Below are positions 1,887 to 7,193 of a DNA stretch of 44,275 bases, piece by piece; position 1 is the stretch's first letter, and every line of letters begins with the position of its first letter. A model generated the notes under the pieces. The model was not told the DNA's origin. It ran no database searches and saw only the letters and a program-made list of their open reading frames with translations. This DNA comes from a virus: IMG/VR virus record IMGVR_UViG_3300028883_000267, positions 1 to 44,275 of that record; one strand, 5' to 3'. Position numbers and translations under genes: made by a program.

Positions 1887-2094
1887 CTATGTCTCCCACC
1901 GGTGCTTTCTTGGGTACTGAAATCTCTCGCCAGCGCACCACGTCATAGGCATGGCCGCCCTGACCCTTGCGGACCTTCCAGAACCGGCCCACTGAATACA
2001 GCACGCCTTTCACCCGCCGGCCATCGCGGAGTTCAACGTCCACGGTGGTGTCCTCGTTCGGGACCGCTTTTTCCACATTCTTCCAATCACTCAT
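1861..2094 (-). CDS. Small hypothetical protein between sugar-transfer genes
   Basis: A 77-residue protein starting at ATG 2094, which has GGGAGGGG at good spacing; a farther upstream codon would lie inside the preceding gene. It overlaps the end of the cytidylyltransferase gene and the start of the DUF115 gene, so the three are translationally coupled. The sequence alternates strand-forming segments (TTVDVELRDGRRVKGVLYS), suggesting a small beta-barrel. No family recognised. Confidence 0.6.
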   Translation of the reverse strand: MSDWKNVEKAVPNEDTTVDVELRDGRRVKGVLYSVGRFWKVRKGQGGHAYDVVRWREISVPKKAPVGDIDERTESTD

Positions 2095-2857
2095 TGTTCC
2101 CCTCCCGGGCATAGTCGTAATAGACCGCTGGACCGCGGCCTTTGAGGATGAAGTGCTCCATCAGCACCTCTCCAAGTTCAAACTCTTCAAGCGTGTCCAC
2201 ATCGGCGTCCTGCCACCCATCAAGCATCACAGCGGGAGACAAGGGCAGGACACGGGCCGCCGCTTTGGCTTTCGTGTCCACATCAATCGCCGCATCACTG
2301 TCATCAGCGGCACAAGACACCTGATACCAATCCGGGCGCACAACACCGGTGCCGCCAACTGCCCGGTAGTATTGGTAGCTCTTGTCAAACAGGGTGCATT
2401 GCAGCTCGTTCCCCACTTCCTCGTACAGCACCGTTTCGCGTTGCGGAATGGCCTGGAGAACGCCCCCGTCTGGAAGTCCAAGCCCGATAAACTTGGCAAT
2501 CATGCGGTCAATGTCATCAGGTTTCTTCAGGGGCACCGTGGGGAGCATAGACACCCACACGTCGAAGTCGCCGGTCGCTTCCATGATGCGATTGAGCATG
2601 TGCAACGTGGGACGTTGGCCACTCGCCGTGTCTGCGTCCGGCCAATCCGGCCGCCTGATGACATTGGCACCGTACTGCTCGCCAACTGCCTGTATCTCGT
2701 CGTCGTCAGTGGACAACCACACCTCATCCACAAGTCTGCTGCACTTGGCCTGAATGATGCTCCACGCCACAAGCGGAATGCCGCAGAATGGGCGGACGTT
2801 CTTGCGGGGCAACCGTCTGCTTCCACCCCGGGCGATAATCCCAGCAACTACTCTCAT
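2087..2857 (-). CDS. CMP-sialic/nonulosonic acid synthetase-like cytidylyltransferase
   Basis: A 256-residue protein of the NeuA/PseF family, which joins CTP to a nonulosonic acid to give CMP-sugar and pyrophosphate. Residues 7-20 form the nucleotide-binding signature (IIARGGSRRLPRKN), followed by FCGIPLVAWSI, the STDDDEI segment and MLPTVPLKKPDDIDRMI. Length matches single-domain family members. The start has a strong AGGAGGAG site that abuts the 3' end of the tmRNA-like element. It is followed by a small coupled gene and the DUF115 gene, giving an activation-plus-transfer pair. The exact sugar cannot be told; a CMP-Kdo-type substrate is the main alternative. Confidence 0.82.
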   Translation of the reverse strand: MRVVAGIIARGGSRRLPRKNVRPFCGIPLVAWSIIQAKCSRLVDEVWLSTDDDEIQAVGEQYGANVIRRPDWPDADTASGQRPTLHMLNRIMEATGDFDVWVSMLPTVPLKKPDDIDRMIAKFIGLGLPDGGVLQAIPQRETVLYEEVGNELQCTLFDKSYQYYRAVGGTGVVRPDWYQVSCAADDSDAAIDVDTKAKAAARVLPLSPAVMLDGWQDADVDTLEEFELGEVLMEHFILKGRGPAVYYDYAREGNNE

Positions 2858-2869
2858 GTTGTCTCCTCC

Positions 2870-2948
2870 TGGAGGCGCGGGGAGTCGAACCCCGGTCCCG
2901 TCTGTTCGCTGATGCGGTTTTCAGTCGGTCGATTCCACAACCACCCCC
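2870..2948 (-). ncRNA. tmRNA-like tRNA-like domain lacking the mRNA-like domain
   Basis: A 79-nt element between two genes. The 5' end GGGGGTG pairs with CGCCTCC (2877-2871) over 7 bp, with a G3-U70 wobble and A73 at 2870, the alanine identity set of tmRNA. The 5' segment after the acceptor reads GTTGTGGAATCGAC, close to the conserved tmRNA 5' end. The T-arm is CGGGG-TTCGACT-CCCCG preceded by GGAC, as in tmRNA 3' ends. A P2-like stem CCGACTG/CAGACGG (2928-2922 with 2904-2898, one A-A mismatch) is closed by a 17-nt loop where the mRNA-like domain and pseudoknots would normally be. CCA is not encoded. An attachment-site relic of a host ssrA gene or a decayed tRNA are the alternatives. Confidence 0.55.
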
Positions 2949-2951
2949 GTG

Positions 2952-4145
2952 TCATATCGCCACCGCATCCCTGGCCGTTTCCACGAACCGGTGATACCTC
3001 TGCGGATCCCCGTTCAGACTCAGGGGTCCGGGAAAGTTCAGGTGCCAATGCTTGCCCGCAAACGTCCGCGCCATCTTCGTCAGTGCCGCGTGTATCTCGT
3101 CGTCTGTTTGGGCATATACGGTGTCAACGAGTGACGGGCGCACCGCGAGCAGGTAGTCAGTCCCAAGTTCGTCAATCACGTAGTCCCAATTGCACCGTTC
3201 TGAGATGATGACCTCACGCAGGTTGGGTAGTGTCTTGACGATTCCCAACTTCCCATCCTGTGACTCGCAGCACCCGTATGACCCATTCCCAAATAGCGCA
3301 TAGATTGGCCTGAGAACGGGGAAAAGGTATTCCTCAAGCATCTCGGGCGATACGCAACTGAACTCCTCGCCATCACCGTGGACCCACATATCGCAGAGCC
3401 GGGGTGTCTCCACCCGAGTGCCGTGCCATGCGTAGAAGTCGGGGATAAAGCAGTTGTTGTCAGTCAGGCGCCGGCGGCGCTCAAGCCCCTGGTTGTGCCG
3501 GACAAATCCATCCGCGGTAATCTGAAAGAATCGCTTGATGAGGTCGGGATACAGGGCGAACCATTCCAGCATCCGCCGTTGGCCCATGAGTTGAAATGCC
3601 CACGCGCCAAACTTGGCAATGCACAGGTGCCGGTGCCGCCACTCCACCCGGACATCAAGTATGCCGTCAAGCAGTTCCCTGGTCCGGTCATATTGCTCAA
3701 GGGTCGTGGTGCCGTCCAGGTGCGGGGCCGGAACCTGCATCCGCTCAATGTCTTCCGGCGTCTCAAACTCGCCGTGAAACACGGTGTTGTCGCCAACCCA
3801 TGAATCGTGCATCTGGATGCCCCAGAAGGTGGCAGAACTCTCGTGATAGGTCGCACCCAGCATCACCCACGGTTCAATCACCATGTCACTGCCGAGGCTT
3901 GCATACCACAGTTGCTTGCGGAGTTGCGTTTCAACCGCCCCATACACGGGGTCTCTTGCCATGGGGTAGGGGGCGAGTATTTCCTTGAAGCAAAAGCCGT
4001 CTACGGACAGCAACACCGGGATAGGACCGTCCCAGTCAAAAGCGTTGTACTTACGCCACATCTCGCGCTTGCGGAGGTTGTCGTCACTGTGTGCTATGTC
4101 TGCAACCTGTTTGGCAAGCTCGCGGATCTGCGCGGTCTTGTTCAC
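2952..4145 (-). CDS. Uroporphyrinogen-decarboxylase-fold protein
   Basis: A 397-residue protein of the URO-D superfamily, which includes heme-pathway decarboxylase and cobalamin-dependent methyltransferases. The assignment rests on overall length and on the pattern of the C-terminal half (GSYGCCESQDGKL, then TLPNLREVIISERCNWDYV). It is the divergent type often annotated as trimethylamine corrinoid protein 2 and found beside sugar ABC transporters in anaerobes. True heme synthesis is unlikely. The start is GTG at 4145 with GAGGAGGGTG upstream. It follows the second permease by 27 bases and probably belongs to the same transcript. Substrate unknown. Confidence 0.65.
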   Translation of the reverse strand: MNKTAQIRELAKQVADIAHSDDNLRKREMWRKYNAFDWDGPIPVLLSVDGFCFKEILAPYPMARDPVYGAVETQLRKQLWYASLGSDMVIEPWVMLGATYHESSATFWGIQMHDSWVGDNTVFHGEFETPEDIERMQVPAPHLDGTTTLEQYDRTRELLDGILDVRVEWRHRHLCIAKFGAWAFQLMGQRRMLEWFALYPDLIKRFFQITADGFVRHNQGLERRRRLTDNNCFIPDFYAWHGTRVETPRLCDMWVHGDGEEFSCVSPEMLEEYLFPVLRPIYALFGNGSYGCCESQDGKLGIVKTLPNLREVIISERCNWDYVIDELGTDYLLAVRPSLVDTVYAQTDDEIHAALTKMARTFAGKHWHLNFPGPLSLNGDPQRYHRFVETARDAVAI

Positions 4146-4172: not shown

Positions 4173-4985
4173 TCACTCCTTCACCGCGCCCCCGAGCGCG
4201 GACGTGAAATACCTGCTTGCCGAAAAGAACACCACCAGCATGGGCGCAAGCAGGACTATGCCGACTGCCAGGCTCCGGCCAACCGGGTTGACTGATATCT
4301 CCGACGCCCCCAGCGTCATCACCGCCCGCATCAGGCCCACAAGCAACGTCTGCGCCGCCTTCCGCTGTAACTGGAGCATCTGCCACAGGTAGTCGCCCAT
4401 TGCACCAATCGCGGTGAACAGGGACAGGGCCGTCACAATGGGCCGCGATATCGGGGCAACCACCCGCCACAGGATCTGCCACTCGCTTGCACCGTCTATC
4501 CGGGCTGACTCAAGCAACGAAGGCGGGACGCCCTGGAAGTACGTGCGGGCAAGGTAGAGGCCGGAGGGGTAGAGTGCCGCCGGCAACACCACCGCGGGCA
4601 ATGTGCCGGACAACCCCAGTTTCCTCATCACCACAAACAGGGGAATGATGCTGGAAATCCGCGGTATCATCAGGCCGGACAAAAGTGCCAGCCACAGGAT
4701 TTTTTTGCAGGGGAACCGGTAAAACGCGAATGCGTAGGCTGCCATGACCACCGTGGAAACGGCCAGTGCCGTGCCAAGCCCCATTATCAACACCGTGTTT
4801 AACGCCCACCGTCCGACCGACAAGGACGCAATCCACTCGTAATTGCAGAGGGTAGGGTGGTGCGGTATCAACTGCGGGGGCATGGCGAACACCCCATGGA
4901 TGTCCTGAAGACTACCAATGGCCATGAAGTACAGCGGGGCAAGTGCGAGACACGCAAGCAGGACAAGCAGAATCTTAGCTCTCAC
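4173..4985 (-). CDS. Carbohydrate ABC transporter permease (MalG-like)
   Basis: A 270-residue inner-membrane protein with about six hydrophobic segments. The EAA loop, which contacts the ATPase, is visible as ARIDGASEWQILWRVVAPIS around residues 160-180. The C-terminus and the long periplasmic stretch after the first helix (LQDIHGVFAMPPQLIP) are typical of the second permease of CUT1 importers. It overlaps the first permease gene by 11 bases, so the two are co-translated. No ATP-binding subunit is encoded in the window, so it would need a host ATPase of the MsmK/UgpC kind. Confidence 0.9.
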   Translation of the reverse strand: MRAKILLVLLACLALAPLYFMAIGSLQDIHGVFAMPPQLIPHHPTLCNYEWIASLSVGRWALNTVLIMGLGTALAVSTVVMAAYAFAFYRFPCKKILWLALLSGLMIPRISSIIPLFVVMRKLGLSGTLPAVVLPAALYPSGLYLARTYFQGVPPSLLESARIDGASEWQILWRVVAPISRPIVTALSLFTAIGAMGDYLWQMLQLQRKAAQTLLVGLMRAVMTLGASEISVNPVGRSLAVGIVLLAPMLVVFFSASRYFTSALGGAVKE

Positions 4986-5799
4986 GGCTTAACCTCTGCT
5001 TGGCCCACGTCATCCCGGCTGTCAGTACCAGCAGGATGATAGCCTGTGCACTTGCCACGCCGTACCGTGACATCTGGAACGCTTGTCGGTAGATATGAAA
5101 CGCCATCGTCGCCGCGTGTTCCTGCGGGGCCATGGCGTAGATGGTTTCAAACACCTGCGGCGCCGCAATGGCCGCAAGCAACGCCATCATGCCAATGGTC
5201 GGGGCAATGATTGGCACCACCACACGGACCTTGATTTGCCACTGACTCGCACCGTCTATCTTTGCCGCGTCAAAAAGTGCCTTGTCGATAGACAGCATGG
5301 CCGCAAGAAATATGATGACCTGGGCGCCCATGACTGAGGACGCCACCACGAGTGACACCATCGGTATCGCTGTCCACCAATGGGAAACGAACGCCACCGG
5401 CTCAAGGCCAATCAATCCCAAAAGCCAGTTGATTGGCCCCGCCCGGTGGAACACCCACCGCCACACCTGGGCGATGATGATACCCGCAGACAGCATGGGG
5501 ATGTAGAACACAAACCGTGCGAAATCGTGCCACCGCTTCGCCAACGGAAACACCAGTAGCGCAACCGATAGTGCGGCAATCACGCTCGTGGCCACCATCA
5601 GCACCACGTAAAGCCCACTGTTGGCAATGGACCGCAGGAACGCCTCGTCACTCAGGGCTATCGCATAGTTGGCAAATCCCACAAACTCGGTGACAATGAA
5701 GTTGGTCCGGGTCAGTGACAACCGGACAACCTCCACCATCGGCCACGCAGTGAACAGTGCGAAGAAAACGGTTGCCGGAATCAACAGTAGAAATTTCAT
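4975..5799 (-). CDS. Carbohydrate ABC transporter permease (UgpA/MalF-like)
   Basis: A 274-residue membrane protein of the binding-protein-dependent permease family. It starts with a hydrophobic segment (LLLIPATVFFALFTAWP) and has the EAA loop AAKIDGASQWQIKVRVVVPI around residues 180-200. It is the usual first permease of a CUT1 sugar importer and precedes its partner directly. There is no good Shine-Dalgarno sequence before the ATG at 5799; instead a strong hairpin (5811-5834) sits just upstream. Substrate unknown. Confidence 0.9.
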   Translation of the reverse strand: MKFLLLIPATVFFALFTAWPMVEVVRLSLTRTNFIVTEFVGFANYAIALSDEAFLRSIANSGLYVVLMVATSVIAALSVALLVFPLAKRWHDFARFVFYIPMLSAGIIIAQVWRWVFHRAGPINWLLGLIGLEPVAFVSHWWTAIPMVSLVVASSVMGAQVIIFLAAMLSIDKALFDAAKIDGASQWQIKVRVVVPIIAPTIGMMALLAAIAAPQVFETIYAMAPQEHAATMAFHIYRQAFQMSRYGVASAQAIILLVLTAGMTWAKQRLSRES

Positions 5800-5810
5800 A
5801 CGGCAAGAAC

Positions 5811-5834
5811 GCCCGCCGTCGTGTACCGGCGGGC
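5811..5834 (-). promoter_or_regulatory. Intercistronic hairpin between binding protein and permease genes
   Basis: GCCCGCCG and CGGCGGGC form a perfect 8-bp stem with an 8-nt loop in the gap between the binding-protein gene and the first permease gene. No T-run follows, so it is not a classical terminator. Hairpins in this place in sugar importers often protect the upstream message and keep the binding protein more abundant than the permeases; that role is inferred from position. Confidence 0.5.
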
Positions 5835-5875
5835 ATGGGGGTCAGGAGTGTTGGCTTGTACACGCAAGCCCTTCA

Positions 5876-7123
5876 TCACTGCACCGCGTCCAGGTCTGCG
5901 GCGTACTCTGCAATGGCCTCTTCCGGGGTCATCTCAAACCGGAGAACCTTCTGGAGAATCGGGAATCCCAGCGACCGCCGCGGGGTGAAATACTGCGTGG
6001 TCAGGCCAACGTCAAAGATGCCGAAGTCGGCCACAATCTGCGCGGTCTCGGCCACCCTCAGATTGTCCGGCAGGAACTCAGCGTCAGCACGGTTCGGAAT
6101 CACAAGGGTGTTTGACATACTCGTCTGCACCCAACCATCGTTGAGGTACTCGGCGAAGCGGGCCGCCGCGGCATCCACCGCGGTCCCGGTGTTCTGCACC
6201 ACGATGGCCGCGTTGCTCACGTAGGTCGGGGTGCCGGATCCATCCACGGACGGGAAGGGCACGAAGGCATAGTCAAACTCGTCGTATCCCTGCTCGGCAA
6301 CAACACCGAAGTATGGCGCTATCCAGCCGGGGAAAAACGCCGTCGCCGCGAGTTCGCCGCGTGCCCAGAACAGCACATAGTCATCGTCAACCAGCGTGTC
6401 CGCTCCCGGGGGTGCATAGCCGTTTTCAACCAGTGTCTGCATGAACGCGAACGTCTCGGCGCCGCCGGTCTCGGCAATCGTGGAGTGGGTGTAGTCGCCA
6501 TCCTGGTACACGTCAACGCCGAAGGCGGAGAACCAATTCATCCACAGGTAGTCGCCCGACTGGTTGCCGGCAAAGAGGCCCGTGCCCCACTTCTCGCCGC
6601 CGTAGTGCTGCTTGACCATCTCGCACATTTCAATGAAGTCCGCGATGGTCCAGTTCCAGTCCACCTCGTATCCAATCTCGCGCATGATTTCCAGGTTGAT
6701 GGCCATGCCCTGCGCCCCGCCGGGCTGCGGGAGTCCAAGCACGTCACCACCGCGGGTGTACGGCCCAAGCACTCCGGGCAGGTACTGGTCAAGGTCACGC
6801 ACCACACCATTCAGGGGCAGGGCGTACTCTGGCACCAGGTACTTGCTCACGCGTCCGATGTAATCGCTGTACACGTTCGGCGCCATGCCCGCCGCAAGCA
6901 GGGCATCCATGGTCATGGTGGACCCGTCAGACAGGTCAAGTCCAAGCTGCACAACTTCGATATCCGGGTAGTCTGCTTCAAAAAGTTCAAGCGCGTGGAG
7001 AAAGTGAATGTCGTCTTCTGCCATCGTTGACAGAATGGTGATTTCACCGGCCTCGGGTTCGGCCTCGGCGAACGCCGCGCCTGCTACAAGCACGGCAACC
7101 AACAGGATAAGAACTCGTCTCAT
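5876..7123 (-). CDS. Extracellular solute-binding protein, family 1 (sugar ABC importer)
   Basis: A 415-residue secreted protein. The ATG at 7123 was chosen because it follows GGGAGGGGAAC and opens a signal peptide (RRVLILLVAVLVAGAAFA) with a probable cleavage after AFA; there is no lipobox cysteine, so it should be free in the periplasm. The mature part begins with EITILSTMAEDD and FEADYPDIEVV, typical of family 1 carbohydrate-binding proteins (MalE/UgpB type), and contains the conserved WIAPYFG and NTGTAVDAAAARFAEYL regions. It heads the importer genes at 5799 and 4985. Ligand not predictable. Confidence 0.9.
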   Translation of the reverse strand: MRRVLILLVAVLVAGAAFAEAEPEAGEITILSTMAEDDIHFLHALELFEADYPDIEVVQLGLDLSDGSTMTMDALLAAGMAPNVYSDYIGRVSKYLVPEYALPLNGVVRDLDQYLPGVLGPYTRGGDVLGLPQPGGAQGMAINLEIMREIGYEVDWNWTIADFIEMCEMVKQHYGGEKWGTGLFAGNQSGDYLWMNWFSAFGVDVYQDGDYTHSTIAETGGAETFAFMQTLVENGYAPPGADTLVDDDYVLFWARGELAATAFFPGWIAPYFGVVAEQGYDEFDYAFVPFPSVDGSGTPTYVSNAAIVVQNTGTAVDAAAARFAEYLNDGWVQTSMSNTLVIPNRADAEFLPDNLRVAETAQIVADFGIFDVGLTTQYFTPRRSLGFPILQKVLRFEMTPEEAIAEYAADLDAVQ

Positions 7124-7193
7124 GTTCCCCTCCCAGGGTTTTGATGGGTGAAACATACCCGATAGTTGTGGCCAAATTAAGGCAAAACTGGCC

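Follow-up and report, generated by a model that had tools for sequence, protein, structure and literature searches.

In canonical tmRNA, G3·U70 and the discriminator A73 direct charging by alanyl-tRNA synthetase, the elbow of the D-loop and T-loop binds SmpB, and the complex of Ala-tmRNA, SmpB, and EF-Tu enters ribosomes whose A site is vacant (PMC3968760). A few forms without a coding sequence (CDS) are known. The 2025 tmRNA database holds 97,179 sequences, of which nine are classified as "standard, no CDS", and mentions a single phage case; the CDS-less forms described are the DS6A phage case, two plastid sequences, and mitochondrial tmRNAs (PMC11915505). The plastid (Mallomonadaceae, approximately 65 bp) and mitochondrial CDS-less tmRNAs are, like the element presented here, tRNA-like domains (TLDs) without a tag frame, but they are organellar, and the mitochondrial genes are usually permuted (PMC11915505). 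According to two reports, mycobacteriophage DS6A encodes a TLD-only tmRNA, and a TLD-only RNA similar to that of DS6A strongly inhibits tmRNA in E. coli, whether it is chargeable or not (PMC4131195, PMC11915505). The first of these reports attributes the inhibition perhaps to titration of SmpB, for which no charging is needed (PMC4131195). The DS6A RNA resembles the element treated below in being a TLD-only phage RNA without an mRNA-like domain; it is a single reported case, and the family with a P2 stem and capping hairpin was set beside it by description. The open-licence papers searched contained no family that has a defined P2 cap and is spread widely among phages.

A tag-less mini tmRNA gene between two viral ORFs

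The window, i.e., the whole stretch of DNA analysed, is a complete virus record of 44,275 bases with genes for a tape measure protein, portal, protease, capsid, and TerL on the minus strand. Its TerL is closest to those of phages of Lachnospiraceae and relatives (57-58 %). The initial annotation had proposed a tmRNA-type tRNA-like domain without an mRNA-like domain but was silent on its strand and on the gap between two minus-strand ORFs that it fills. The window sequence contains a tag-less mini tmRNA gene of 79 nt on the minus strand, which starts 3 nt past the stop of the upstream ORF and ends 12 nt before the ATG of the downstream one (Table 1). From 2948 to 2870 the minus strand reads, 5' to 3', GGGGGTG GTTGT GGAATCGAC CGACTG AAAACCGCATCAGCGAA CAGACG GGAC CGGGG TTCGACT CCCCG CGCCTCC A, the interior between GGAATCGAC and GGAC being CGACTGAAAACCGCATCAGCGAACAGACG. 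All parts listed in the initial annotation were found again: a 7/7 acceptor stem with G3·U70, A73, the segment TGGAATCGAC, GGAC, a T-arm, and a P2-like stem capped by 17 nt. The P2-like stem consists of six pairs, one of them an A·A mismatch, and together with the capping hairpin (29 nt) it stands in place of the whole mRNA-like and pseudoknot part of tmRNA.

Table 1 Features of the mini tmRNA gene and flanking ORFs (positions in the window)
Feature	Position	Strand	Basis
Upstream ORF, 397 aa, no Pfam match	2952..4145	-	Pfam
Mini tmRNA gene of 79 nt, confined to the tRNA-like domain	2870..2948	-	RF00023 45.2 bits, model 1-374; family model R1 63.3 bits
Acceptor stem, 5' strand GGGGGTG, with the G of the G3·U70 pair	2942..2948	-	Sequence; 7/7 pairs
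Reduced D-loop segment GGAATCGAC, tmRNA/SmpB-type, without D-stem	2928..2936	-	Sequence
P2 stem and capping hairpin, CGACTG AAAAC CGC ATCA GCG AA CAGACG	2899..2927	-	Fold; family covariation
GGAC preceding the T-arm	2895..2898	-	Sequence
T-arm CGGGG-TTCGACT-CCCCG (5-bp stem, 7-nt loop)	2878..2894	-	Sequence; fold
Acceptor stem, 3' strand CGCCTCC	2871..2877	-	Sequence; pairing
Discriminator A73; CCA not encoded, G next	2870..2870	-	Sequence
GGAGGAGACAAC, leader of the downstream ORF resembling a Shine-Dalgarno sequence, immediately 3' of A73	2858..2869	-	Sequence
Downstream ORF, 256 aa, cytidylyltransferase family (CTP_transf_3, PF02348)	2087..2857	-	Pfam

With standard tmRNA (RF00023) the element shares the acceptor with G3·U70 and A73, the stemless D-loop GGNNTCGAC, GGAC, the T-arm, and the start of P2, but resume codon, tag frame, H5, and pseudoknots are all missing, and it measures 79 nt versus 230-400 (length of tmRNA: PMC3968760). 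A covariance search that allowed deletion, as suggested with the first description of the element, matched the Rfam tmRNA model RF00023 from end to end (2948-2867, model positions 1-374, middle deleted) with an E value of 1.7e-18 and 45.2 bits, just below the curated cut-off of 47 bits. Standard searches of the window gave no Rfam match above the gathering scores, and ARAGORN reported neither a tRNA nor a tmRNA. The minimum free energy fold of the 79-mer recovered the acceptor, P2, and T-arm. Its stability is no better than that of shuffled sequences (z = 0.08), so the case rests on homology and not on energy.

Several other classes were considered. An ordinary tRNA is not indicated, as the fold has no D-stem, ARAGORN finds no tRNA, and the combination of a D-stem with an anticodon arm is absent. 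The mascRNA-menRNA family (RF01684) is tRNA-like, with a small arm replacing the anticodon arm, and its likeness to the element comes from the acceptor and T-arm; it is a eukaryotic product of lncRNA processing, unlike the mini tmRNA, and its model scored 33 bits versus a gathering score of 42.5. A two-piece or permuted tmRNA (RF04321) was matched weakly (14.5 versus 47 bits), and both halves of the element are in the normal order.

The proposal that the RNA is unable to tag is supported by the sequences of the window element and its relatives (see below). The 29-nt insert contains no tag reading frame with a resume codon and stop, and only P2 and the capping hairpin fit in it, leaving no space for H5 or the pseudoknots PK1-PK4. 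Among 81 elements, 24 had in the hairpin an alanine codon with a stop downstream in the same frame, compared with 23.0±4.2 in shuffled sequences, i.e., without excess. A candidate five-residue tag in records L002 and L003 (GCA, four codons, and TAG) was set aside, since across the family such frames do not exceed the shuffled level. In L072, ARAGORN called a longer tmRNA, which we regard as spurious because the 80-nt element at that place forms its pairs independently. The mini RNA thus has all tRNA-side parts of tmRNA and none of the template, and the window RNA is likely to be chargeable with alanine, judging from its acceptor and discriminator.

The surroundings of the gene contain further ORFs of interest. 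On the same strand, at 660-2857, an ORF for an MptE-like protein (PF01973) and the cytidylyltransferase ORF (PF02348) flank a small ORF beside the mini tmRNA, which suggests a sugar-nucleotide or glycosylation cassette. On the other side (4173-7156, minus strand), two ORFs for ABC-transporter permeases and one for a solute-binding protein (BPD_transp_1, SBP_bac_8) lie on the same strand as the phage genes and represent either auxiliary genes or a host flank. At 2858-2877 (minus strand), the acceptor sequence CCTCC directly precedes the GGAGGAG leader of the next ORF, with which it could pair.

The mini tmRNA family

Searches for relatives with the 873-aa tail protein found none, and a tight DNA pattern modelled on the window element had no matches. 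A pattern in which TGGANTCGAC and the GGAC-T-arm were 15-45 nt apart detected two viral contigs, and a relaxed one, in which GGNNTCGAC was used and 18-48 nt were allowed between TCGAC and GGAC, detected at least 120. As this pattern fixes GGNNTCGAC, GGAC, and the core of the T-arm, conservation of the D-loop, GGAC, and T-loop is not independent evidence, also not for SmpB binding; the acceptor, A73, P2, cap, and spacing were left free. The matches listed contain 89 unique viral elements, including that of the window (at least 88 besides it). Among these, the acceptor has 7/7 pairs in 86 and 6/7 in three, G3·U70 is present in 87 and A73 in all 89, CCA is encoded in 16, and the distance from TCGAC to GGAC is 28-32 nt in 80, although 18-48 nt were allowed. 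Neighbouring ranges of this distance yielded fewer contigs, 23 at 49-79 nt and three at 3-17 nt. The RF00023 cut-off was passed by 47 of the 49 other carrier records among the matches listed.

The same pattern occurred at only 24 places in about 85,000 species genomes, with a 7/7 acceptor in six. The cases in Parafrankia and Acidimicrobiales adjoin genes for TerL and portal or head proteins, and L129, another of the six, adjoins a protein related to phage families.

Compensatory changes in the stems, together with homologues in other phages, had been named as a check on the structure, and both were found. Covariance model R1 was used to align 83 elements, of which 82 distinct rows were scored. 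Standard pairs occupied 93.4 % of the cells versus 66.3 % after shuffling. The covariation score was 0.661 versus 0.141 for shuffled alignments and at most 0.122 when the columns were slid by one to three positions; fitting to model R1 favours the structure, but the margin over the slid controls is large. Both sides change in 17 of 22 pairs, with double changes in all seven pairs of P2 and all three of the cap, for which the family consensus is AAA-R-CCG-CAYG-CGG-A. The pairs G1-C72 and G3·U70 (82/82) are invariant in this alignment, while acceptor pairs 4-6 vary through five or six pair types. As G3·U70 and A73 are kept in spite of being outside the search pattern, with pairs 4-6 covarying, alanine identity is, by the pattern of substitutions, under selection in this family.

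For some phages ssrA is the site of integration, and their DNA includes its 3' end. A decayed or captured piece of host ssrA, or an attachment site, could leave such a sequence behind, and matches to the T-arm only do occur in many mycobacteriophages. In the present family, the 5' and 3' halves are both present and paired, covariation is strong, the length is fixed, and there is a capping hairpin of its own; moreover, the matches in at least 120 viral contigs stand against the six good cases in the species genomes. The covariation refutes this reading for the family, and we regard it as hardly credible altogether; no sign of the ssrA fragment considered in the initial annotation was seen. The observation of a tag-less tmRNA-type RNA in a phage is thus confirmed, and it is not a relic. 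A T-arm match in Pseudomonas phage SM1 was weak and showed no clear mini tmRNA.

Elements of other sizes were also encountered. About a dozen from the range of 49-79 nt have 7/7 acceptors and larger P2 loops; such acceptors with 50-74 nt between TCGAC and GGAC were seen in L158, L160, L162, L165-L167, L169, L170, L172, L174, and L177, and these represent either short tmRNAs or another class of greater length in which no clear tag is seen. Smaller forms without the capping hairpin and with 11-19 nt between TCGAC and GGAC are located at L179:5-63, L116:5575-5641, and L108:1914-1980 (all on the plus strand), L179 having the ultra-short distance of 11 nt. The larger-loop and ultra-short forms show that related subtypes exist. 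Viral relatives with a P2 hairpin of 40-43 nt (L031:11908-12002, L044, and L123:11594-11684) overlap a predicted ORF of 236-260 aa on the same strand, which belongs to one protein cluster.

Gene neighbourhoods and partners

Among the matches listed, the mini tmRNA gene lies just upstream of the major capsid gene at 12 loci, one of them in Pontimonas phage phiPsal1, upstream of a DnaB-like helicase gene at eight of the nine loci of that cluster, and opposite an HNH gene at seven. Several lie in tRNA arrays, those of Streptomyces phages among them, and many copies are remote from neighbouring genes or run antisense to them. So many unrelated gene contexts make it most likely that the RNA acts in trans. 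A role in cis, as a processing or translation-control structure between cistrons, is accordingly very unlikely: it would agree with the ORF-ORF gap filled by the window copy and with the possible pairing of CCTCC with the adjacent GGAGG, but the downstream genes differ completely between phages, copies occur far away, antisense, or in tRNA arrays, and G3·U70 is not required for RNA processing. The minimum-energy fold of a longer fragment, in which part of the leader is in a hairpin and which differs from the tRNA-like fold, would also fit a role in cis, the fold energy of single sequences being uninformative as evidence for the 79-mer and the longer fragment alike.

The location in phage tRNA arrays would also suit an RNA that serves outside ribosome rescue, either as a non-decoding alanine donor for another host or phage enzyme or as tRNA-like bait for defence nucleases that attack tRNAs. 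Alanine identity is conserved without an anticodon, and the capping hairpin could bind another partner. The reduced D-loop and GGAC are, on the other hand, of the tmRNA type, a plain tRNA-Ala would suffice as donor, and no neighbouring enzyme is conserved across the contexts; we consider a role of this kind improbable, though less so than one in cis.

A phage-encoded SmpB as partner was discarded: no SmpB gene was found in the 49 carrier records among the matches listed, whereas the control search detected it in ten bacterial controls; many of these records may be fragments, which makes the absence weak for each one singly. The lack of SmpB genes in the carriers implies that a partner from the host is needed. 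A full-length tmRNA accompanies the mini form in two of these 49 records, the 123-kb record L010 and Streptomyces phage Riptide. In the mini form of Riptide (L152:2477-2553, plus strand), the D-loop and GGAC have drifted while G3·U70 is kept. WhiB-like genes are present at several mini tmRNA loci, and the cultured carriers infect Streptomyces and Pontimonas, which together point to Actinobacteria as prominent hosts. The annotation of the cultured carriers either omits the element or has a hypothetical protein over it.

Possible roles in ribosome rescue

The initial annotation had suggested an inhibitor or decoy of ribosome rescue, without the precedent of DS6A and without the large family with its own capping hairpin. 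By analogy with the DS6A RNA and the published inhibition by a TLD-only RNA, this suggestion is plausible. The reading we favour, at about even confidence, is that of an alanine-charged, tag-less mimic of tmRNA that would act in trans, compete for SmpB, EF-Tu, and stalled ribosomes, and blunt rescue. The RNA would be excised from the phage transcript like a tRNA, by RNase P and 3' processing, with CCA added by the host, and would be charged by the alanyl-tRNA synthetase of the host via G3·U70 and A73. Bound by host SmpB and EF-Tu, it could then compete with host tmRNA or enter stalled ribosomes in its stead. As resume codon, tag, and stop codon are all missing, it would be unable to switch the ribosome to a template, and the net effect would be that trans-translation is blocked or blunted during infection.

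The strict alanine identity indicates that charging matters in nature, and entry into stalled ribosomes, with either a dead end or a tag-less release as outcome, is thus more likely than pure titration of SmpB, as far as can be read from the conserved residues. Titration needs no charging (PMC4131195), and the strictness of G3·U70 suggests something beyond it. A pure decoy would not account for the conserved hairpin AAA-R-CCG-CAYG-CGG-A, a point against the favoured reading.

A tag-less form of rescue would be the opposite of inhibition: the alanine-charged mini tmRNA with SmpB would take over the stalled peptide, the peptidyl-RNA would drop off and be hydrolysed, and ribosomes would be freed without tagging, which would help the phage, e.g., when a host defence cuts mRNAs. 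This requires charging with alanine and fits the strict G3·U70 and A73. In trans-translation as known, ribosomes are released when they reach the tag's stop codon, and we know of no established route of ribosome release without it. In favour of such a role, mitochondrial tmRNAs that lack a tag frame are co-conserved with SmpB and are believed to assist when mRNAs are incomplete (PMC11915505), while the published TLD-only RNA inhibits (PMC4131195). We consider tag-less rescue unlikely, though the least unlikely of the alternatives to the alanine-charged inhibitor.

Taken as a family, the mini tmRNAs extend a known oddity to a widespread group with a distinct structure, DS6A being compared by description. 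They add 89 unique viral sequences among the matches listed, in which alanine identity is under selection and an additional hairpin is conserved. They also expose a blind spot: the genes escape ARAGORN, and in cultured Streptomyces and Pontimonas phages they have gone unannotated. With confidence a little short of even, we propose that phages, many of them of Actinobacteria, carry widespread, independently evolving mini tmRNAs with conserved alanine identity and capping hairpin, which would be RNA antagonists or tag-less replacements of trans-translation acting via an alanylated ribosome complex and not by simple titration of SmpB. Two questions become directly testable in laboratory hosts: whether ribosome rescue is switched off or replaced by phages, and for what reason a TLD-only RNA should need charging. 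The family suggests that phages use such RNAs to interfere with, or take over, the ribosome rescue of their hosts.
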